A stretch of 33,312 nt of DNA from Desulfobulbaceae bacterium. GTDB taxonomy: Bacteria; Desulfobacterota; Desulfobulbia; Desulfobulbales; Desulfobulbaceae. Shown in pieces: positions 4,862-23,144 of the stretch. Position 1 is the stretch's first letter; every line of letters starts with the position of its first letter. A program made the translations under genes and the position numbers. Below the pieces are notes generated by a model. It made no database searches. It saw only the letters and a list, made by a program, of their open reading frames with translations, and was not told the origin of the DNA. The stretch spans positions 37,744 to 71,055 of the forward strand of contig JAABPV010000086.1 of NCBI GenBank assembly GCA_011391865.1, read 5' to 3'.

Positions 4862-4937
4862 ACCTCGCGCAGAAAAACTTACTCATGCCGATTCGTAATA
4901 TCGGCCTAACGATAAAAAAAATCAGGAGGACGTGATC

Positions 4938-5285
4938 ATGCTGACAAACAGCATTCCCAAGCTGCTTCAGGAGGCGGGAGAGGTGCGGCAGGCTTTGGCG
5001 GCAATAGGCGAGGGCCTGCCCGCTGAAATTTCAGCGGCGGCGATGGGGGCAAAGATTGCCGAGCTGGAAGCAGTGGTCGCCGATCTGGACGCGAATAATG
5101 TGGAGCGGACGCGGCTGGTCAATCTCAAGAAGGACAAGGCCGAGGTGGTGAGCGATTACGTTGTGCAGTCGCGGGCAGTAGTCAAGGGGATTTTCGGCGC
5201 GGACTCCTATGAATACGACATGGTTGGCGGCACAAGGGCAAGCGAGCGGAGCAGGCCGAAGAAGAAGGATAAGCCAACGGCGTGA
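4938..5285 (+). CDS. Small conserved hypothetical protein, 115 aa
   Basis: Function not recognised. The N-terminal two thirds is predicted helical and alanine/glutamate-rich (PKLLQEAGEVRQALAAIG; AKIAELEAVVADLDANN), which suggests a coiled coil or helical bundle. The C-terminus carries the basic tail EYDMVGGTRASERSRPKKKD, a tail type seen in families of small bacterial proteins of unknown role. The start is the ATG at 4938, because AGGAGGA (4924-4930) has seven-base spacing to it but only one base to the in-frame GTG at 4932. Its last 76 bp (5210-5285) recur almost exactly at 5862-5937, just upstream of the TIR-like gene. Confidence 0.75.
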   Translation: MLTNSIPKLLQEAGEVRQALAAIGEGLPAEISAAAMGAKIAELEAVVADLDANNVERTRLVNLKKDKAEVVSDYVVQSRAVVKGIFGADSYEYDMVGGTRASERSRPKKKDKPTA

Positions 5286-5324
5286 TTGACAGGCAGAACA
5301 ACAGAAAACTGCCGTAATAAGAGC

Positions 5325-5600
5325 ATGGAAGCAGCGGTCGTCTGGACAGATTATATGCAATACCGCCTTAATCTGCGGGGATTCAATCCTGTCATTATTG
5401 AGGAAATTCTACGCTATTCTTCAGAGCGGTATTTTGACACCATGACAGAACGTGCGGTTGCGGTCGGTCGGCACGGCGATGTTCTTGTCATGGTGCCGTA
5501 TGAAATCAAGGACAATGCCATCATTCCCGTGACCATTCATGCTGCTGACCGCAAACAGATTACGGCGAGAATCAAATCTGGGAGGTTCATAAATGACTGA
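5325..5600 (+). CDS. DUF4258-like small protein, probable partner of DUF2283
   Basis: A 91-residue protein whose second half has the strand pattern and RAVAVGRHGDVLVMVPYEI / KSGRF elements of DUF4258/BrnT-like small proteins, which are often encoded just before a DUF2283 protein. Such pairs have been proposed to act like toxin-antitoxin modules; activity here is inferred only. The stop codon lies inside the start of the DUF2283 gene (8-bp overlap), so the two are translationally coupled. The frame could start at a TTG (5286), but the ATG at 5325 gives the conserved length. The ribosome site is weak. The pair lies exactly between the two copies of the 76-bp repeat. Confidence 0.65.
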   Translation: MEAAVVWTDYMQYRLNLRGFNPVIIEEILRYSSERYFDTMTERAVAVGRHGDVLVMVPYEIKDNAIIPVTIHAADRKQITARIKSGRFIND

Positions 5601-5829
5601 AGGCCGCATGTCGTATTTTGCTCAGGAAGATGTGCTGCATCTTGCCTTGTCGGATGAGGAGGAGGCGGGCAGCGTGGAGGTCGGCCCGAACATCACGGCG
5701 GAGCTGAACGCCGCTGGCGAGCTGATCGGGATTGAGATTTTAAGTGCGAGCGCGTTCATCCGGGATTCGGTGCTGGACAGCGTGCAGGCGCGGCTGCTTC
5801 AGTTGGGGAGAAGAGCGGCGGCGGTATGA
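5593..5829 (+). CDS. DUF2283 family protein
   Basis: A 78-residue protein matching the DUF2283 pattern: an opening strand ending in DVLHLALSDEEEAG, then VEVGPNITAELNAAGELIGIEIL, the typical alternation of short strands with an -N-x-x-G-x-L-I-G-I-E-I/L core. A strong ribosome site (GGGAGG, 5580-5585) sits seven bases before the ATG at 5593; an internal ATG at 5608 is a possible alternative. The start overlaps the upstream DUF4258-like gene. The biochemical role of DUF2283 is not established. An antidote role to the upstream product is the usual guess. Confidence 0.75.
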   Translation: MTEGRMSYFAQEDVLHLALSDEEEAGSVEVGPNITAELNAAGELIGIEILSASAFIRDSVLDSVQARLLQLGRRAAAV

Positions 5830-5861
5830 AGTGGGTGCAGTCTGTCGAGCAGAGATTTCTT

Positions 5862-5937
5862 TGAATACGACATGGTTGGCGGCACAAGGGCAAGCGAGCG
5901 GAGCAGGCCGAAGAAGAAGGATAAGCCGACGGCGTGA
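5862..5937 (+). pseudogene. Duplicated 3' end of the 115-aa gene (direct repeat of 5210-5285)
   Basis: These 76 bp match 5210-5285 with one difference (AAGCCG against AAGCCA, synonymous). The match starts at the codons for E-Y-D-M and ends precisely at the TGA stop; flanks on both sides differ. The frame upstream (SRDFF against ADSY) has no start codon before a stop at about 5827. It is therefore a headless gene end, from a duplication or from a paralogous allele. It precedes the TIR-like gene by 106 bp. Confidence 0.85.
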
Positions 5938-6043: not shown

Positions 6044-7324
6044 ATGCCAGCAACAATCTTCTACTCGTGGCAGAGCGATTCAGACAAATCAGTCAATCGC
6101 AATTTCATTGAGGATGCACTCAAAAAAGCCATTCGGCAACTGAACCGCAATGAAGATGTTCTTTCGGCCATGCGTGATGAAGACAGCGTGGAGTTTGACA
6201 AAGACACGCAGGGAGTTCCCGGCAGCCCTCCTATTGTTGAGACGATTCTGGAAAAAATATCCAACGCAGCGGTGTTCGTTCCTGATTTGACCTTTGTTGG
6301 CACGTCGTCCGCTGGCCGCGCCTTGCCAAATCCAAACGTGCTGATTGAATACGGATGGGCTTTGAATGCCCTTGGACACCGCCGCATTGTGTCCGTTATG
6401 AATACGGCGTTTGGAGAGCCTACGGAAAGAACGATGTCGTTTGACATGCGCCATTTGCGGCACCCGATCACCTATCATCTTTCTGAAACAGATGGGCCGG
6501 AGCAAAAGAAGAAAGTCAAAGATGAACTCGCCAAGGATTTGGAACGCGCCCTTGCCACTGTCTTCAAGCAAATGCCAGCAGAGGATGCAGATGCAAATGC
6601 CTTTGTCGGCCAACCCGCAACGTTTAGTCCATCAGCATTCTGGGAGAAGGGCGAGACATTCAGTTTCAACAACGAGCGCATTTCGATACCTGATGTTCCA
6701 AGAATGTTCCTTCGCCTCATTCCAAATAAACCGCTGGTATCAATTGAAACAAGCAAGCAGGTGCTGGAGTTAATCAAGTTCACTAGCCTGAAGCCGATGA
6801 GTGATGGCAATATTGACTGGTTTTATGAACGGAATAAATATGGTGCATTCTCAATCGCCCAGCATGAATGGGGCTTAGTCAGGCATCTCTCTCAACTGTT
6901 CAAAACAGGGGAAATATGGGGTGTTGACTGTTGGACACTAGATCGAGAACTTGTACTCCGACATGACCATTATCCTTATCTTCTTGATTTAAATCCAGGA
7001 GTCCCAGGAGTCTTCCCGTGCGCCTTCTTTGAAGAGGTATTCATCAAGACACTCGAAAATTACCTGAAATTTGTCCGTGAAAAAATCCAGTTATCTCTTC
7101 CAGTAAAACTAACTGTCGGCGCGACAGATGTTAAAGGATTCATGATGGCAAAAGGTTATGGAGTTAGTAGCCGTTTTCTTGGAAACGTTGTTGAAGAGCA
7201 TCTCATCAAGGAAATGATTATTGACAATTACGATACGCCTCCTCGAACAATTTTGAGGCCATTTTTCGAGTACGTGTGGGAAGAATGCGGACTGACTCGC
7301 CCTGACAAGGAAAGTCTTGGTTAG
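6044..7324 (+). CDS. TIR-like domain protein, putative defence effector
   Basis: A 426-residue protein. The N-terminal 150 residues have a TIR-like pattern: a first strand with IFYSWQSDSD, the helix NRNFIEDALKKAI, the loop DTQGVPGSPPIVETILEKI, the strand AAVFVPDLTFVG, then NPNVLIEYGWALNALG followed by RIVSVMN. E102 in LIEYGWAL sits where TIR NADases keep the catalytic glutamate. The C-terminal 250 residues are not recognised and may sense a trigger. TIR-like proteins of this kind occur in anti-phage and NAD-depletion systems; a role here is inference. The start is the ATG at 6044, with GGAAG nine bases upstream. It follows the duplicated gene end and the palindrome and precedes a toxin-antitoxin pair. 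Base composition is lower in GC than in the flanking core genes. Confidence 0.7.
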   Translation: MPATIFYSWQSDSDKSVNRNFIEDALKKAIRQLNRNEDVLSAMRDEDSVEFDKDTQGVPGSPPIVETILEKISNAAVFVPDLTFVGTSSAGRALPNPNVLIEYGWALNALGHRRIVSVMNTAFGEPTERTMSFDMRHLRHPITYHLSETDGPEQKKKVKDELAKDLERALATVFKQMPAEDADANAFVGQPATFSPSAFWEKGETFSFNNERISIPDVPRMFLRLIPNKPLVSIETSKQVLELIKFTSLKPMSDGNIDWFYERNKYGAFSIAQHEWGLVRHLSQLFKTGEIWGVDCWTLDRELVLRHDHYPYLLDLNPGVPGVFPCAFFEEVFIKTLENYLKFVREKIQLSLPVKLTVGATDVKGFMMAKGYGVSSRFLGNVVEEHLIKEMIIDNYDTPPRTILRPFFEYVWEECGLTRPDKESLG

Positions 7325-7379: not shown

Positions 7380-7574
7380 ATGGCTGCGTCAGAGATAGGC
7401 ATCATAGAACGGCTTGATCAGGAAGACAAGGAGAAGGTTTCGTACTTTATTCGCCTGCTGCTGAACAAGTCAAAATATCAGCAATTAAAGAAAGAAGTTA
7501 TGTCTCGACGGGAAGAAATAAAATCTGGCGAGACAATATCGCATGAAGACTTGTGGAAACAGATGAATGTTTAA
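7380..7574 (+). CDS. Type II antitoxin of a RelE-type pair
   Basis: A 64-residue, charged, mostly helical protein (LDQEDKEKVSYFIRLLL; YQQLKKEVMSRREEIKSGE) that ends ISHEDLWKQMNV. Size, composition and the 8-bp overlap with the downstream RelE-like gene mark it as the antitoxin. It would bind the toxin through its C-terminus and, as is usual for such pairs, could repress its own promoter. AGGAGA lies at the right distance before the ATG at 7380. The exact antitoxin family (RelB- or DUF-type) cannot be named. The DNA is AT-richer than dnaX downstream, which fits acquisition. Confidence 0.75.
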   Translation: MAASEIGIIERLDQEDKEKVSYFIRLLLNKSKYQQLKKEVMSRREEIKSGETISHEDLWKQMNV

Positions 7575-7821
7575 GATCATCTACGCGAAAAGCGTCTTCA
7601 AAGATTTGAGAAAGATCGCTACTGATCAGCTTCCTGTCATCAAAGAAGGAATTGATGATCTTGATAAATTTCCTAATATTTCTCAGTTAAAACATCTGAA
7701 AAATCACTCTGTCGCAGAGTATCGGCTGCGTGTGGGCAATTACAGAGTGCTTTTTGATGTCAACTGGGAGCAGAAGGAAATACACATTTTAAAGATAGGA
7801 CATCGGCGAGATGTCTATTGA
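7567..7821 (+). CDS. RelE/ParE-family toxin
   Basis: An 84-residue protein with the RelE/ParE fold signature: an opening strand FKIIYAKSVFKDLRKI, a helical hairpin, then SVAEYRLRVGNYRVLFDV and the closing strand IHILKIGHRRDVY. RelE members cleave mRNA in the ribosomal A site, and ParE members poison gyrase. The conserved Arg in YRLRVGNYR and the C-terminal HRRDVY favour the RelE side, but this is not decisive. Its ATG overlaps the antitoxin stop, so the two are cotranslated. Only 28 bp separate it from dnaX. Confidence 0.85.
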   Translation: MFKIIYAKSVFKDLRKIATDQLPVIKEGIDDLDKFPNISQLKHLKNHSVAEYRLRVGNYRVLFDVNWEQKEIHILKIGHRRDVY

Positions 7822-15665: not shown

Positions 15666-17093
15666 TCAAATAAAAAAGTTATTTTCTTTTGTAAGATTAT
15701 CTTTGATAAATTCATTTATATTGTCGCCAAACATCTTGATGTCAAATATGTCGTCCGGCACAGTTGGTTTGGCATAAAAATGCCAAGCTAAAGAAAAACT
15801 ACCTTTCCCTGTTATTTTATCACTGATAGCTTTTTCCATTTCAAGATAAATACATTTAACCTCTTTCGAGGAAAGAAGAATCTGGATGTATTCACTGTAA
15901 TTTACAATCCACACATATTTTTCTATAAACTCAATTTCTTGTTCGTTTAATTTTTTAACTCTAAGCCATTCTTCGATTGAATGCTTCCAATTTTCAATTG
16001 GATCACATAGTGTTATATCATGCAGAGTAACGATCATTCCACACGATTTATTCTTGCTGCTCGAAAAACTCCTGAAGCTCTTCAGCATTTGAGAATAACC
16101 TTTCAATATAGAACTTTTTAAAGAGCTAAAATGAGCCTTTTGCGTTGGGTATTGCGGTAATAACTGATGAAATATGCTTGATTTAAATTCAACAAAAAAA
16201 TAAATATCGTTATCTTCATCTTGGATTACTCCATCAACTCCTTGCTTTGGTTTTTCAAAACGAATATCGAACATTTTTGTATAATCTGACAAAATTCGTT
16301 CAAACTCATCTTCAATCTTCTTTTTGCAAATCATATTTCTATCAAGCATAAGCTCGTAAATTCCATTGCGCATAAAAATTTTAAATAACTGGAGATTTAG
16401 AATTTGCAAATTTCCGTAATTATTTATGAAAAATGGATGTTTTCTGAAAACAGTTAAACTGTTTTTCTCGAAAAGGACTGTTTTGAAACGTTCTTTACTC
16501 TCCAACGCATATTGATGCAGTTTTTCTTCCGTCAGATCGAATAACTCCCAGTATGAATCCACCTCCTCTTGTTTAAGTATGTTCTTAAACAATGATTTAT
16601 CGCATTGTTTTTTCTGAAAATCAGTTTCGGTAATTATGGAAATAAGTGATACAAAACGCAAAAAATTTGAAGCGTTATTATCCAGTTTTTTCGATAATTC
16701 AAGGGCAAATCCAATACTGATCCATCTATATATACCCTTGATTTGATATAATAATTGTTGATGAATAATACTTCTTAACAACCAGAACAAAGAGTATGAT
16801 TTTCCAAATCCTTCTATGACGATTTCTTCATCAGGCAGTTTAACGACAGAGTCGTATAATTTTTCAAAATCATTTTCGCTCATTCTTACTTTTGAATTTT
16901 TGTCGCCAAAATTAACTCCCCAAATAATAATATTAAAAATAAGCCAAGGGTATACATGACTGTTGATTGAAATTTCCTTCCAGTTTTTGGCAAGTTTATT
17001 GACTGCATGTTCTGCTATATCTAATGGACGAAACTTGCAGAGCTTATTCCTTATTGGCTTGAACGATGCGTCATAGTATGATTTCTGTTCCAT
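15666..17093 (-). CDS. AT-rich gene of unknown function with PD-(D/E)XK-like motif, 475 aa
   Basis: Not recognised as any named family. The protein is lysine-, isoleucine- and asparagine-rich, and the gene is markedly AT-rich against its GC-rich neighbours, a sign of horizontal transfer. Near residue 285 the sequence KQGVDGVIQDEDNDIYFFVE followed by FKSS gives D287 and E302-x-K304, the spacing of a PD-(D/E)XK nuclease core, followed by a helix with lysines and GYSQMLKSF. The first 250 residues are helical without clear motifs. A stand-alone defence nuclease is possible but not shown. The start is taken as the ATG at 17093; a GTG at 17105 is in frame. It begins 26 bp after the stop of an orphan mpl 3' fragment. 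Confidence 0.8.
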   Translation of the reverse strand: MEQKSYYDASFKPIRNKLCKFRPLDIAEHAVNKLAKNWKEISINSHVYPWLIFNIIIWGVNFGDKNSKVRMSENDFEKLYDSVVKLPDEEIVIEGFGKSYSLFWLLRSIIHQQLLYQIKGIYRWISIGFALELSKKLDNNASNFLRFVSLISIITETDFQKKQCDKSLFKNILKQEEVDSYWELFDLTEEKLHQYALESKERFKTVLFEKNSLTVFRKHPFFINNYGNLQILNLQLFKIFMRNGIYELMLDRNMICKKKIEDEFERILSDYTKMFDIRFEKPKQGVDGVIQDEDNDIYFFVEFKSSIFHQLLPQYPTQKAHFSSLKSSILKGYSQMLKSFRSFSSSKNKSCGMIVTLHDITLCDPIENWKHSIEEWLRVKKLNEQEIEFIEKYVWIVNYSEYIQILLSSKEVKCIYLEMEKAISDKITGKGSFSLAWHFYAKPTVPDDIFDIKMFGDNINEFIKDNLTKENNFFI

Positions 17094-17119
17094 TATATTC
17101 CACACAAAAATTTCAGGTG

Positions 17120-17235
17120 CTACCTTAATCGCACGTAAATGTTATCAAACCCGCCGTTTGACAGAATGGCGATGACATCGCCTGATTTGGCCTGCGCCAG
17201 CAGAAAAGCAAGAATGGCAGCGGGGCCGGAAAAGC
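17120..17235 (-). pseudogene. Orphan 3' end of a diverged mpl gene
   Basis: On the minus strand this encodes AAILAFLLAQAKSGDVIAIL then SNGGFDNIYVRLR and a stop, matching the C-terminal DAILAFLLKQARPGDVIAIL then SNGGFDNIHMRLLEG of the intact mpl product at 17596-19083. By eye the nucleotide match is roughly 80% over about 100 bp and ends at about 17230, so this is a diverged copy and not a fresh duplication. There is no start codon or upstream coding domain. It directly precedes the 475-aa gene. Confidence 0.85.
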
Positions 17236-17353
17236 GCCGCCGCAAGAAGCAGCATTCTGCTCATTTCTTTTGTGCTCCGAACAAAATTATCTCCTGTTTA
17301 CTAAAATGGCACGATTTTTCCTTAAAAAAATCCGCAGTTCCTAGTTGAAAACC

Positions 17354-17539
17354 GCGAACGAAATGTTTCCCGTCAAAATAATTTTGTAATTATGACAGAC
17401 GACATGTGTTCTGCCTCAAACAACATGTTGTCTGTCACGATTATTTTTTCCCTGCCGCAAACGAAATGTTTCCTGCCAAAATAATTTGGGGTTTATGGCA
17501 AACAACATTTCATCCGAGGCAAACTAAATTTCATCTGCC
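17354..17539. repeat. Array of degenerate ~21-bp motifs spaced 21 or 41 bp
   Basis: Six variants of GCAAACGAAATGTTTCCTGC occur, with the ATG/ATT core at 17363, 17404, 17425, 17466, 17507 and 17528 (steps 41, 21, 41, 41, 21). The skipped positions hold AT-rich units such as CAAAATAATTTTGTAATTAT. One pair forms an inverted repeat (ACAGACGACATG at 17395-17406; CATGTTGTCTGT at 17425-17436, one mismatch). The 355 bp between the mpl fragment and mpl contain no gene; 17241-17353 and 17540-17595 show nothing else. The near-regular two-turn phasing suggests a protein-binding array or a decayed mobile sequence. Confidence 0.7.
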
Positions 17540-17595
17540 GCAAATACGAGTTGATCCGCCAGACTGATTCGGGGGCAGCGACTGAGATTTTTTCG

Positions 17596-19083
17596 TTACG
17601 GCGCAGAGTTGCCGCCAGACTTTGCGGTCAGGCCGACAAGGCGCAGCCCTTCCAGCAGCCGCATATGAATATTATCAAACCCGCCATTTGAAAGAATGGC
17701 GATCACATCGCCGGGCCGAGCCTGCTTGAGCAGAAAAGCAAGAATGGCATCGGTGTCGGGGAAATACTCAGCCGGAATGCCCTGCTGGTTCAGGGCCGCT
17801 GCCAGCTGCTGCGAGGAAAAGCTGTCGCCCGGCGCGGCGTGGTCAAGCGGCATAATCTCCCGCACCACCACCATGTCCGCGCCTGCGAAGGCAGTTTCGT
17901 AATCCCGCTGAAAGACCGCCCGGCGGCTGGTGTTGGTGCGCGGTTCAAAAACAATCAGCAGGCGGCGTTCCGGCCACGCCAGCCGCAACGCGCTGATTGT
18001 CTCGCGCACGGCGGTGGGATGATGAGCGAAATCATCAATCACCGTGATGCCGTTGACTTCGCCGCGCACCTGCTGCCGCCGCTTCACGCCCTCAAAGGAT
18101 GCCAGCCCACGCCGTATTTCCTCGCAGCTGAGGCCAAGATGCTCCAGCAGGGCAATCACGGCCAAGGCATTGAACGCATTGTGCTTGCCCGGCATAGGCA
18201 GGCTGAATGCACCAAACAGGCTGCCGTCTTTCCAAGCGGCAAAGGTCGAGCCAAGCCCATTTGCGGCAAAATCCTGGAGCTGCCAGCGGCAGTTTGCGCT
18301 TGTGCCATAGCCGATTACTTGGCCAGAACAAAGCGCGGCAATCTCCGCCACGACCGGATCGTCCATGCAGGCAATTAACGCGCCTTCTGCCGGAATCAGG
18401 CGGACAAATTCACGGAAGGAATCCTTGATCTGTTCTAAATCGGCGAAAATGTCGGCGTGATCGAATTCAACTGAGGTGACAATGGCGCAAAAAGGCCGGT
18501 AATGTAGAAACTTGGAAACCTTGTTGAAAAAGGCGGTGTCGTATTCGTCGCCTTCGATTACGAAGCAATCGCCGGTGCCGATGCGGTAATTGCTGCCAAA
18601 CGCCTCGACTATCCCGCCGATGAAAAAGCCCGGCGAGCGATCGGCACGGTGCAGAGCCGTCGCCAGCAGCGAAGAAGTCGTGGTTTTGCCATGCGTTCCG
18701 GCCACAACCAATGGCTTGATTGCGCTGTGCAGAAAAAAATGCCCCAGAGCCTGCGGCATGGAGAGGTAGGGAATGCGCAGCTCGGCCAGCCGCTGCGCCT
18801 CCGGGTAAATGGCCCGGATGACATTGCCGACCACGACCAAATCCGGGCGCGGCTCCAGATTCTCCGGCCTGTAGCCCTGCATGACCGCAATGCCAGCCTG
18901 CGCGAGGAAATCCGACATCGGCGGATACACGTTCTGATCCGAGCCGCTGACCACGTAGTCGCTCTCCTTGAGCATCCCGGCTAAGGCAGCCATTGCTGTG
19001 CCGCAGATGCCCATCAGGTGGATATGGCGGACATGCTCTGGCGCACGGTTGAGCTGCGGATCAAGCTGCGCTGTCGTCGTCAT
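17596..19083 (-). CDS. mpl: UDP-N-acetylmuramate:L-alanyl-gamma-D-glutamyl-meso-diaminopimelate ligase
   Basis: Mpl recycles murein by joining the tripeptide L-Ala-D-Glu-meso-DAP to UDP-MurNAc with ATP, in the cytoplasm. The 495 residues have the Mur-ligase layout: N-terminal HIHLMGICGTAMAALAGML, the P-loop GTHGKTTTSSLL at about 129-140, FVIEGDEYDTAFF, VTSVEFDHADIF, the MPGKHNAFNALAVI segment and the C-terminal IDDFAHHPTAVRETI. The HIHLMGICGTAM start and DEYDTAFFNK separate Mpl from MurC. The ATG overlaps the stop of a 60-aa gene (ATGA), so translation is coupled. It implies a meso-DAP peptidoglycan. A diverged piece of its 3' end lies downstream at 17120-17235. Confidence 0.96.
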   Translation of the reverse strand: MTTTAQLDPQLNRAPEHVRHIHLMGICGTAMAALAGMLKESDYVVSGSDQNVYPPMSDFLAQAGIAVMQGYRPENLEPRPDLVVVGNVIRAIYPEAQRLAELRIPYLSMPQALGHFFLHSAIKPLVVAGTHGKTTTSSLLATALHRADRSPGFFIGGIVEAFGSNYRIGTGDCFVIEGDEYDTAFFNKVSKFLHYRPFCAIVTSVEFDHADIFADLEQIKDSFREFVRLIPAEGALIACMDDPVVAEIAALCSGQVIGYGTSANCRWQLQDFAANGLGSTFAAWKDGSLFGAFSLPMPGKHNAFNALAVIALLEHLGLSCEEIRRGLASFEGVKRRQQVRGEVNGITVIDDFAHHPTAVRETISALRLAWPERRLLIVFEPRTNTSRRAVFQRDYETAFAGADMVVVREIMPLDHAAPGDSFSSQQLAAALNQQGIPAEYFPDTDAILAFLLKQARPGDVIAILSNGGFDNIHMRLLEGLRLVGLTAKSGGNSAP

Positions 19084-19262
19084 TTATTCAGTTCCTCCGC
19101 CGACTGCCGGACGGTGTTGAAAATCCGCTCGTAATGCTCCTCGAAATTCGCCGGAGTCACCTTGCCGATTTCGATGAATTTGACCATGATTTCCTTGACC
19201 GCTTTCAGCACCGCCTCGTCAGTCACGGGCCGGACAAAGGGCTGTCCTTTCTGTTCAGGCAT
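19080..19262 (-). CDS. Small conserved protein, copy A (coupled to mpl), 60 aa
   Basis: Function not recognised. The product is helical, with MPEQKGQPFVRPVTDEAVLK at the N-terminus and GKVTPANFEEHYERIFNTV later. It is a near twin of the gene at 21707-21892: over 181 aligned bases I count 17 differences and no gaps, and the first 63 bases of the coding strand are identical. Similarity stops exactly at the ATG. An in-frame GTG two codons earlier (19268) is not conserved in the twin, so the ATG at 19262 is chosen. The stop overlaps the mpl start, and the reading frame is intact in both copies, so it may be expressed and could act in translational coupling. Confidence 0.75.
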   Translation of the reverse strand: MPEQKGQPFVRPVTDEAVLKAVKEIMVKFIEIGKVTPANFEEHYERIFNTVRQSAEELNK

Positions 19263-19286
19263 GTTCACATATATATTGCATAACTT

Positions 19287-21710
19287 TTAAGATGAAATTC
19301 TTCCCCAGCCAAAATCTATTGTTCTTCGTTTTTTCGCTGTTTTTGGTTTATCTGCTGTTTTAGGTCGAATAAGGGTATATATATCGAGACGATGCTCACA
19401 ACCTTTCTCATCTTTAAGGTTTCTGTATCCATTTTCCAAATCTTCTTTTGTAATGAAAAGTATCTTTAATGAATTTCCAGCCATTTGTTGCAGATGTTTC
19501 TTGAAATTGTCTGGGTAGCTTTCAATAAAGCTGCTTATAAAAAACACTTTAAATCCGCATTCTTTAGCAATAGACAGTGGGGGCTTAACTTGCGCCATCA
19601 ACTCATCCCAATTTGGACTTTGCGATTTTGGTGACTGGTTGCTAAAATCCTTGCATTCTCCGGCGATCAAAATACCATCTCCACACGCCAGCAGATCAAA
19701 ATCTGTATCAATTTTCCCTTGATTTACCTTAGCTCCCGGATACCAGATAAATCCATTATGGGTCAACGAACGCAGGAAACGCGCCGTCAAAACTACAGGC
19801 CGCATTCCCTCATCAAATACTGCCAGCCGAACAAGCTCATTCAACGCATATCCTACGCGAACACGGTCTGTTATCAAAATTTGCTTGCCGCATCCTGGAC
19901 ACATAACCGGTGAAGTGATGTCAATATTATCCTGCCAATACTCCCGGTCACAGCTTGGACATTTATCCAAAAGCCATTTACGACGAATAACGTTTATTCT
20001 GGTGAGAAATTCAAGAATATTATCAGGCGTGGATTCTTTTCTTAGCACACTCTTCAGGCTATCGCTAACTCGATTTCGTGCAATATCCTGAAACGGGGGA
20101 GGGTATCGCTCCAAAATAGTTTTAGCAAATTCAGGAAGAGGTTCTAAGTTTTTACAGTTACCAAGCCTCGCTTTTCCTTGCAGTTTGTCATAGACCAATG
20201 GTTCAGACTCAAGGGCCTTAATAATCGACCAGCATTTCCCTGTCAAGGCAATACAGGCTGTACTGAAATCAGGAAAAAGATCAAGTGTCTTTGAATATCG
20301 GATGTTCTTCTCATCTTTTCTAAGAGTGCATCCAGCACGATCTAAAATCACCTGAAAAATTTCATGTTCGGAAGGAAGTTGAAATCTTACCGCAGCAGAC
20401 TCTTCGCTGCCAGTAAATACAACGCTGAGAAATTCTTCTCCAAATCCAACAATAAGCTGATACGAATAATGCTTTCCCGGAAGATTAAGCAGCAAGAATA
20501 TATCAGAGTCCTTTGGGAGGGCAAAATCAAATGGATAACGTGTTGTTTTATCTTCTTTGACCAAATCGCAATAATAGCGCGCAAATGCATATGGATTCGG
20601 ATAAGCAGGATCAACTCTTGGGACTATCACCTCTTCATTTTCTACAGAAACAGTGATTGTTTTCTCTTGTTCATAACAAGATATATCTTTTGCTACAAAA
20701 TTTGTAGTCGCATCAAGCGAATATTCCTTTTTTTGGATCAGCACAATTCGTGACTGTAACCGACGGGCAGCCTTTTGGAGCGCAGTTCTGTTATTTCCGG
20801 CTGTCCGTATGAAACCGTAAGTTGACATGATCTTAGATGAACAAAAAGTCTCTGTCAGACAGTCAAGAACTTTTTGGTTTTCAATATCCTGTTCCCGAAG
20901 CATCAGCAGACTCTCATCAGAACTACCCTGTACGATATGACCTTGCAGATTCCAAAACAGACAGAGATCACGAATTGGCTGTTGTTTATCCAAGAGAACA
21001 ACTGTCGGCGGATCACTAAATAACACCGACGACAGTTGCCTTATTCCTTGGTTGAGAAAATCAAGCCATGACAATTTTCTTGCCATAAAAGTAAACAAAT
21101 TATATAGTTCATAGGCATTGCTTACGCGGACTTCATATATTTCAGCGTTTAGGTATTTAGCAAGATCGTTAGTAATATCATCAGGAAGAAGCCCGTAGGC
21201 CGCTGCAACACAACAACGAAACTCTTCAGCAGCATCTATTTTCAGAAAAAATAAATTGTTCCTTTTAAGATTTGGATATTTCTTATGTTCCTGCCGAACA
21301 ACCTTATCCCAAGGAGTCAGTCCGCCTATACTGCTTTCATCAAAGTTAGAAAGAAAATCATCTGTAATTTCTATAAGCTGAGGAGAATATAGTATGTCTC
21401 TTACATTTGATCCTGCTTTTCTTGGCCGATTAATTGTAAGAGATAGTGCCAAATATTCTTCCTGCTTCCCTGGAACAACAAGAAGTTCTGGAAAGAATAT
21501 TTTAACTTCTTCTTTAGCCCGTTGCAGAGATTCGTCCTTGCGATCTCCGTGCATATCTACAAAAATAAACCGAGCGAATTTGCCTCCCCTGACCATTGAA
21601 AGGAACTTAATAGTTCTCAGAAAGGCATCAATGGTGGTATGAGTTGAAAAAAGCACCGCAATTCGTGGCGGACGAATACGAACACGTAGTTCATGGGATG
21701 TTTCCGTCAT
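19287..21710 (-). CDS. 807-aa protein of unknown function with zinc ribbon and PD-(D/E)XK-like domain
   Basis: Not recognised by name. Visible are a zinc ribbon (CPSC at 584-587, CPGC at 604-607) and, after it, a nuclease-like core: E625 in the helix YALNELVRLAVFDEG, IDTDFDLLACGDGILIAGEC with D670/D672 and E685, then K687, closing with VFFISSFIESYP and LFITKEDLENGY strands. The N-terminal 550 residues start with IAVLFSTHTTIDAFLRTIKF and are otherwise featureless to me. The domain order suggests a DNA-acting defence or restriction-like protein; this is inference. The gene is AT-richer than the core genes and sits alone between two copies of a small gene. Its ATG overlaps the stop of copy B (ATGA), copying the arrangement of copy A and mpl. 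Confidence 0.8.
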   Translation of the reverse strand: MTETSHELRVRIRPPRIAVLFSTHTTIDAFLRTIKFLSMVRGGKFARFIFVDMHGDRKDESLQRAKEEVKIFFPELLVVPGKQEEYLALSLTINRPRKAGSNVRDILYSPQLIEITDDFLSNFDESSIGGLTPWDKVVRQEHKKYPNLKRNNLFFLKIDAAEEFRCCVAAAYGLLPDDITNDLAKYLNAEIYEVRVSNAYELYNLFTFMARKLSWLDFLNQGIRQLSSVLFSDPPTVVLLDKQQPIRDLCLFWNLQGHIVQGSSDESLLMLREQDIENQKVLDCLTETFCSSKIMSTYGFIRTAGNNRTALQKAARRLQSRIVLIQKKEYSLDATTNFVAKDISCYEQEKTITVSVENEEVIVPRVDPAYPNPYAFARYYCDLVKEDKTTRYPFDFALPKDSDIFLLLNLPGKHYSYQLIVGFGEEFLSVVFTGSEESAAVRFQLPSEHEIFQVILDRAGCTLRKDEKNIRYSKTLDLFPDFSTACIALTGKCWSIIKALESEPLVYDKLQGKARLGNCKNLEPLPEFAKTILERYPPPFQDIARNRVSDSLKSVLRKESTPDNILEFLTRINVIRRKWLLDKCPSCDREYWQDNIDITSPVMCPGCGKQILITDRVRVGYALNELVRLAVFDEGMRPVVLTARFLRSLTHNGFIWYPGAKVNQGKIDTDFDLLACGDGILIAGECKDFSNQSPKSQSPNWDELMAQVKPPLSIAKECGFKVFFISSFIESYPDNFKKHLQQMAGNSLKILFITKEDLENGYRNLKDEKGCEHRLDIYTLIRPKTADKPKTAKKRRTIDFGWGRISS

Positions 21711-21892
21711 GATTTATTCAGCTCATCCGCCGATTGTTTGACGGTGTTGAAGATCAGCCTGTAATGCTCCTCAAAATTCGCCGGAGTCACTTTGCCGATC
21801 TCAATGAATTTGACCATAATTTCCTTGGTCGCTTTCAGCACCGCCTCGTCAGTCACGGGCCGGACAAAGGGCTGTCCTTTCTGTTCAGGCAT
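21707..21892 (-). CDS. Small conserved protein, copy B (coupled to the 807-aa gene), 61 aa
   Basis: The twin of the gene at 19080-19262, differing mainly near the C-terminus (HYRLIFNTVKQSADELNKS against HYERIFNTVRQSAEELNK). The frame is intact. The stop TGA shares bases with the ATG of the 807-aa gene. No clear ribosome site precedes the ATG at 21892. The two copies form direct repeats of about 181 bp around the 807-aa gene. It is either the native first copy, with cargo inserted behind it, or part of an imported unit; the identical first 63 bases point to the recombination point lying in that stretch. Confidence 0.75.
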   Translation of the reverse strand: MPEQKGQPFVRPVTDEAVLKATKEIMVKFIEIGKVTPANFEEHYRLIFNTVKQSADELNKS

Positions 21893-21921
21893 CTTGTATA
21901 TGGCGTAAAAAAGAAAAGAAA

Positions 21922-21966
21922 CCTCAGCCGCCCGGAAGAAGGCCAGTTCAGTTCGGGCGGCGGAGG
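21922..21966 (-). terminator. Rho-independent terminator after the secreted protein gene
   Basis: CCTCAGCCGCCCGGAA (21922-21937) pairs with TTCGGGCGGCGGAGG (21952-21966), with one mismatch and one bulge. On the minus strand it is followed by a T-rich run (TTCTTTTCTTTTTT). It lies about 60 bp after the stop of the gene ending at 22027 and would isolate it from the small-gene copy B. Confidence 0.75.
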
Positions 21967-22026
21967 CCGTCTCACAGAGGAAAAACCCTTGAAGGCACTT
22001 CCTCGGAGAAATTTGATGGCCGGTTT

Positions 22027-23043
22027 TTAATTCCTCGCCAGTGCCTCGAAATCCATGGCTTCAGCATAGCGAAGCATGGTGTCCTGATCAACAGCTCGGC
22101 CTTTTATTGTGACAATAAAGCGGCCTGCCACAACAATATTGATCTCGCCGCTGCGTTCGTTGGCGTTGTATTTGATCATCGCCCGCTGCTGCTTGATGGT
22201 CTGGAGATTGCCGCCAGACGCTCCGGCAAAGAGCGGATTGTTGAGCATCATGATGATGGACTGCAAAACCGGCGAGTCGGAGACGATCTCCATGTACAGC
22301 ACCGAGCTGGCTGTGAAGTAGTCGCGGCTGACTGTCGAGCCGCCGCCGAAAACCGCCGCGCCGAGAGATTTGGCCGCAGCCGGTTTGGCTTGCCAGCCGG
22401 GCAGCGGCTCCGGCAGCAGGGCCTTCATCTGCTCGCTCTTTTTCTGACGGATGAGCTGGGCGGCGTAATCAAGATTGGAAATCGCCCCGGCAAGATCATT
22501 GGCCCGGTACTGCCGCACCGCCTGCTCAATCACGTTGATGATGTCGTCATTGGCGAGCCAGCTGGGCTGCGGTGCCAACGGAAAGAGGTCTTTGGCCGCT
22601 TCCGATGCTGCTGCCGGGGCCACCGGAGGAACGGCGGCGTTCGGATTCAGCTCCGCCGTCTCTTGCGGCGCATTCTGCTGTGCCGTCGGCAGCGCAGTTT
22701 GCGGTGGAATTTGCTGAGGCTGCGTCAGATCTGCGGACGGGGGTTGCTCGACAGAAGAATTTTTCCAGAACCAGTTTGGGTCGTCAGACGGCGGCGTAAA
22801 TTCTGCCGGAGCCTGCTGCTGGAGCTGCCCGCTTTGCTGATCTGCGGCAGCAGACGCAGCAGTTGGAGCGGACGGCGTGTCTATGTCTATGGACTGCTGC
22901 TGGCCGCCGCCTTCCGCTTTGTACTGCTGAACAATGGCCTCCATCGCCTTGAGCAGCTCCTCCTCTTTTTCACCCGCCCAAGCCGGGGTCAAGCTGCTGA
23001 CAGCGAAGGCCAGCGACACGACAGCGAATAACGCTCTCCTCAT
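22027..23043 (-). CDS. Secreted periplasmic protein of unknown function, 338 aa
   Basis: A Sec signal peptide (MRRALFAVVSLAFAVSSL, then TPAWAG) sets the start at the ATG at 23043, although the frame is open further upstream. After a short helix comes a long glutamine-, alanine- and proline-rich linker (about residues 45-150) of low complexity, then a folded C-terminus: NVIEQAVRQYRANDLAGAIS, ALLPEPLPGWQA, YMEIVSDSPVLQSIIMMLNN and INIVVAGRFIVTIKG. This C-terminal block recurs in proteobacterial periplasmic proteins of unknown role. A linker of this type commonly lets a protein span the periplasm. A terminator lies downstream; serS is the upstream neighbour on the same strand, about 100 bp away. 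Confidence 0.75.
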   Translation of the reverse strand: MRRALFAVVSLAFAVSSLTPAWAGEKEEELLKAMEAIVQQYKAEGGGQQQSIDIDTPSAPTAASAAADQQSGQLQQQAPAEFTPPSDDPNWFWKNSSVEQPPSADLTQPQQIPPQTALPTAQQNAPQETAELNPNAAVPPVAPAAASEAAKDLFPLAPQPSWLANDDIINVIEQAVRQYRANDLAGAISNLDYAAQLIRQKKSEQMKALLPEPLPGWQAKPAAAKSLGAAVFGGGSTVSRDYFTASSVLYMEIVSDSPVLQSIIMMLNNPLFAGASGGNLQTIKQQRAMIKYNANERSGEINIVVAGRFIVTIKGRAVDQDTMLRYAEAMDFEALARN

Positions 23044-23144
23044 TGTTCGTCCCGTGCAGAAGTTCCGTAAGAAATAGATTTGTTGCGCCTCCTTAGTGAT
23101 ACATCCCGGCTGGGGCGGTGTCAAGCGCGGACGGCAGCCGCGCC

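Follow-up and report, generated by a model that had tools for sequence, protein, structure and literature searches.

Gene content at the mpl locus

The window, by which we mean the whole 33,312-nt stretch of Desulfobulbaceae DNA analyzed here, carries on its minus strand, in the direction of transcription, a native 365-aa gene of unassigned function (22027-23124), a 61-aa small gene (copy B, 21707-21892), an 807-aa ORF (19287-21710), a second small gene of 60 aa (copy A, 19080-19262) and mpl (495 aa, 17596-19083). The coordinates of both small genes and of the 807-aa ORF agree with a first-pass annotation made from the sequence, which had also taken the 807-aa ORF to replace mpl. The replacement was not borne out: mpl is intact and scores 403.6 bits against the TIGR01081 equivalog model (cut-off 388.7), the true murC lies elsewhere in the genome (C7, 548 bits), and the 807-aa ORF is an additional gene.

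The gene order found in relatives is serS, the 365-aa gene, the small gene and mpl. Five genomes represent the genus (Candidatus Electronema and allied Desulfobulbaceae, the window included), and in all four others the small gene directly precedes mpl. The same adjacency is found at all 29 loci of the family, nearly all of them with the 365-aa gene before the small gene, and at the order level in 41 of 41 relatives (the 29 family loci plus 12 further loci, three other families included). Two adjacent small genes occur in the window genome alone among the 59 family genomes with a match; one other genome (G035) also has a second match, located on another contig. Since relatives place mpl directly after the small gene and the adjacent pair is confined to the window genome, the window carries an insertion of the 807-aa ORF and one small gene between the leader and mpl.

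Copies A and B lie in a direct repeat of 191 nt with 90% identity, which is not a chance match, because of this identity and because the protein family encoded by the two is conserved throughout the phylum. Substitutions separate them at 17 of the 180 coding positions (18 of 183 counting the stop codon), with none in the first 63 nt and all 17 in the remaining 117, as the first-pass annotation had estimated by eye (about 91% identity). A clean 5' run of 63 nt is improbable under random placement (P = 0.0004), as is a run of that length anywhere in the gene (P = 0.008). Among the positions variable in relatives, the two copies disagree at 0 of 17 that fall in the 5' part and at 14 of 47 that fall in the 3' part (Fisher P = 0.013), and the 63 nt without a difference between A and B are not constant across species. 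Each copy overlaps the next gene by the four nucleotides ATGA (B with the 807-aa ORF at 21707-21710, A with mpl at 19080-19083), and the proteins that follow begin MTE and MTT, so that the earlier description of two parallel constructs, each sharing its TGA with the ATG of a Met-Thr gene, holds.

Of 395 phylum genomes sampled, 142 (about a third) carry a member of the small-gene family, which is present as a single copy in 139. Residues K23, E24, V27, K28, F29, I30, E31 and F40 are invariant in an alignment of 40 sequences. Neither Pfam nor NCBIfam gave a match, and comparison of the small protein with the PDB, by profile and by fold, returned nothing significant. The structure model is a confident helical hairpin (pLDDT 88), and the small gene represents a single-copy family of the phylum without a Pfam model.

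The 807-aa ORF and its remote relative

We take the 807-aa ORF to be a foreign gene because its composition (GC 0.40, GC3 0.33) contrasts with that of mpl (0.59 and 0.70) and because searches of the remaining genomes of genus and class found no homologue. It is nearly an ORFan: within the phylum it matches one protein only, of 817 aa and from genome G400, in the C-terminal part of that protein (21% identity over 342 residues), and plasmids, phages and viral contigs gave none. The two proteins have in common four zinc-ribbon cysteines (C584, C587, C604 and C607) and the invariant residues D672, E685 and K687, which form a D...(D/E)xK motif of catalytic type (D672...E685-x-K687 in the ORF). The G400 protein approaches the NERD family (PF08378; E = 5.5e-4, 20.8 bits), just under the cut-off of 22.1, whereas the 807-aa protein itself has no Pfam, PADLOC or NCBIfam domain match beyond weak zinc-ribbon matches, and a nuclease fold of the NERD or PD-(D/E)XK type is putative. 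A search of solved structures returned only chance zinc-ribbon matches, and an AlphaFold model from the two-sequence alignment (pLDDT 31.5) was discarded as unusable. From the shared residues we infer that the protein is probably a defence nuclease with a NERD/PD-(D/E)XK-like C-terminus. It is accompanied by neither a methyltransferase nor an integrase, and the cargo is this single ORF.

Translation and transcription signals

To judge Shine-Dalgarno strength, random 20-mers of the window served as background (mean -2.6 kcal/mol, 5% quantile -6.9, 1% quantile -9.1). The Shine-Dalgarno of mpl, GGAGGA, lies within the end of the small gene and reaches -9.5 kcal/mol in copy A and equally in UBA5173 (L032); among the other genus members it is -8.4 in L033, -6.9 in Electronema sp. 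KV (L034) and weak in E. aureum (L035). In four of the five genus members, the window included, the mpl signal is located inside the small gene. For the 807-aa ORF the corresponding value is -3.3 kcal/mol against the random mean of -2.6, i.e. no real signal, and the small genes themselves have none (about 0 kcal/mol). Translational coupling through the small gene is plausible because the strong Shine-Dalgarno of mpl sits inside it and the 807-aa ORF has none; lacking its own signal, the ORF probably depends for its translation on ribosomes finishing copy B. The idea of the small gene as a coupling leader, raised in the first-pass annotation, thus gains support, both from the position of the mpl signal and from the small-gene stop codon, which overlaps the mpl start at all 29 family loci (offsets of -1, -4, -8 or -17).

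Just upstream of copy B, conserved hairpins and a U-rich tract occupy 21893-22030 on the minus strand (fold z = -3.7; conserved in L032, L033 and L035), a candidate terminator or attenuator. An Rfam search of the locus gave a sub-threshold chance match only, and none for these hairpins. Neither is present before copy A, and both copy A and mpl are therefore probably transcribed from a start before copy B.

Accessory-gene turnover and other features of the window

In Electronema-like cable bacteria the mpl locus is a place of gene turnover, since the accessory genes downstream of mpl differ from one genus member to the next. In the Electronema sp. KV genome these are HNH and EcoRII-C restriction genes (L034:10834-12925) next to a transposase, the HNH gene resembling those of phosphorothioate-type restriction; E. 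aureum has a membrane protein of the LIC_10190 family, and L032 and L033 encode proteins without an assigned family. Only the 807-aa ORF was found to lie between small gene and mpl.

Downstream of mpl in the window lies a 479-aa gene (15666-17105, minus strand, GC 0.31), a GapS1-like anti-phage candidate that matches NF047931 over 350 residues (E = 1e-17). Gamma-Mobile-Trio elements are described as encoding anti-phage proteins called GapS1 or GAPS1 (Mahata et al. 2024, cited in PMC12774648). The score of 64.2 bits is far below the curated cut-off of 320, and the 807-aa protein itself has no match to this model. Between the 479-aa gene and mpl is a degenerate second copy of the mpl 3' end (17130-17229, minus strand), 81% identical to 17660-17759, and E. 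aureum has such a copy too (L035:10083-10262). Resemblance to mpl stops near the same point in L032 and L033. In the interval 17352-17546 a palindromic AT-rich repeat occurs twice, in copies that are imperfect (72%) and spaced by 103 nt; one 59-nt relative is on contig C35.

Elsewhere in the window, a 117-aa gene (4932-5285) belongs to a paralogous family with about 10 copies in the genome and a 3' end, conserved at the DNA level, that encodes YDMVGGTRASER. The 84-nt 3' end of this gene recurs (95%) behind a two-gene unit that includes a DUF2283 protein (4932-5937). We dropped the family as a candidate mobile-element target, its roughly 10 paralogous copies having no common follower. A low-GC gene at 6044-7324, weakly similar to the CAP12/Pycsar TIR domain (E = 0.003), adjoins a ParE-like toxin gene (7567-7821), and a tandem array of a 23-nt unit lies at 1111-1297.

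Origin of the two copies

Upstream of copy B the window is collinear with relatives, as it is downstream of copy A, where mpl follows; therefore each copy has one native flank. Over the last 120 aligned positions, copy A is closest to E. aureum (104 of 120) and copy B to UBA5173 (106 of 120), and the two copies agree with each other at 102, an assignment of alleles that draws on 120 sites and five genus genomes. Because the 3' parts resemble different genus members, a recent simple duplication alone would not be enough. One 3' part was probably imported, with a crossover within the first 63 nt, in line with the earlier suggestion of an imported 3' part and an integration in the identical bases.

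We consider the following explanation likely as a whole. In the ancestral operon, the small gene and mpl would have had overlapping stop and start codons, and the small gene would have contained the mpl ribosome-binding site. Exactly at the junction between them, a foreign gene of low GC was then inserted together with an extra whole small gene, giving the order B, 807-aa ORF, A, mpl. Insertion at exactly this junction would sever mpl from its signal, which the extra small-gene copy avoids: mpl would retain its own overlapping leader in copy A, and the newcomer, with a presumed role in defence, would now be translated by coupling to copy B. During or after the insertion, at least one homologous exchange with DNA of another genus lineage would have occurred, and one of its crossovers would lie within the first 63 nt. 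The variable defence-type genes nearby also speak for this explanation. On the other side, no donor that links a small gene to the 807-aa ORF was found, the genus being represented by five genomes.

Within this explanation, either target duplication or import through recombination could have produced the second copy, two routes considered on five genus genomes. Tentatively, the entry of the 807-aa ORF may have been an insertion with long target duplication that copied the whole 186-bp small gene, followed either by replacement of the 3' part of one copy through exchange with another lineage or by homogenization of the 5' parts. The anatomy is that of the restriction-gene insertions described for H. 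pylori in PMC1643837 and PMC3031569, relatives have the empty site, a second partial duplication (the mpl 3' end) lies on the other side of mpl, and the mpl genes of the genus resemble one another in patches, which shows that the locus has undergone exchange. Against it, copies that agree at only 102 of 120 positions beyond the identical 5' part require a second event, and no methyltransferase or integrase accompanies the ORF. The other route, somewhat doubtful in our view, is a single-crossover integration of circular DNA bearing a small gene and the 807-aa ORF, in which copy B would join a recipient 5' part to a donor 3' part and copy A a donor 5' part to a recipient 3' part. It predicts what is seen in the copies (one hybrid point within the shared 63 nt, native flanks before B and after A, and 3' parts of two lineages), but merely about 2.4 kb lie between them, without replication or mobilization genes, and no plasmid match was found.

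An old tandem duplication of the leader that diverged gradually, received the 807-aa ORF between its copies later and owes its 5' identity to gene conversion would look alike. Every residue invariant in the family is retained in A and B alike, and of the 13 changed codons 8 are silent; however, no relative has an adjacent small-gene pair, and copy B has alleles in common with L032 and copy A with L035, so we regard this history as unlikely. Very unlikely is the proposal, made in the first-pass annotation, of a cargo site, in which the small gene would be dedicated to accepting many downstream genes through the same overlap. Outside the order the small gene is indeed followed by different genes (rph, nuoA, TrmJ/TrmH-like, proS, ribD, ubiE and others, named from reading their translations and not from a database result), some of them overlapping. 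These followers look like lineage-fixed housekeeping neighbors, not exchangeable cargo, and within the order mpl always comes next, with the adjacent duplication restricted to the window genome. That annotation had held that a cargo role would fall if homologues always preceded mpl, a constancy that was found within the order (41 of 41) and gives way to other followers across the phylum. An assembly chimera of two strains is hardly credible even for a draft genome of 87 contigs, given that a mis-join at a repeat leaves one copy at the joint, not two around a unique insert, and that the identical stretch is just 63 nt.

Wider significance

The preferred explanation, insertion at the junction with the leader copied, illustrates how a translationally coupled operon could take in a foreign gene while the core gene behind the insert keeps its start signal. 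A candidate defence protein and a single-copy family of small proteins not described before also emerge from the locus. A far broader and improbable extension is a genus-wide mode in which accessory defence genes gain access to core operons through duplication of the leader upstream, the newcomer capturing the native leader and the core gene receiving a fresh copy with a ribosome-binding site, with the leader perhaps assisting the start of the next gene. If true, such an insertion mode would keep both genes translated, and the leader would be a previously undescribed phylum-wide small protein. When 370 kb of the genome were surveyed for low-GC segments lying between long direct repeats, several candidates appeared; for the best one outside the window (L073:11275-13257) an empty site in relatives was not shown, and we do not claim recurrence.

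Comparison with insertions with long target duplication

Insertion with long target duplication is known from strain comparisons in H. pylori, where it is frequently linked to restriction-modification genes (PMC1643837) and the duplications are described as long and variable (PMC3031569); both sources describe the work of Nobusato et al. 2000. The window differs in that its repeat copies diverge at about 15% of positions beyond the first 63 nt, that the repeat is a complete small gene apparently acting as a leader, and that the cargo is a lone NERD-like near-ORFan, not a restriction-modification system (frequent in H. pylori insertions, not obligatory). The likeness lies in an accessory gene placed between long direct repeats of host sequence (191 nt, 90%), in the empty site of the four other genus genomes and at all 29 family loci, and in a probable nuclease-type cargo with no need of a transposase. 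By analogy, the event appears to work like a long target duplication, here with diverged repeats and a cargo other than restriction-modification: a real and well-defined insertion with leader duplication, ordinary in kind.
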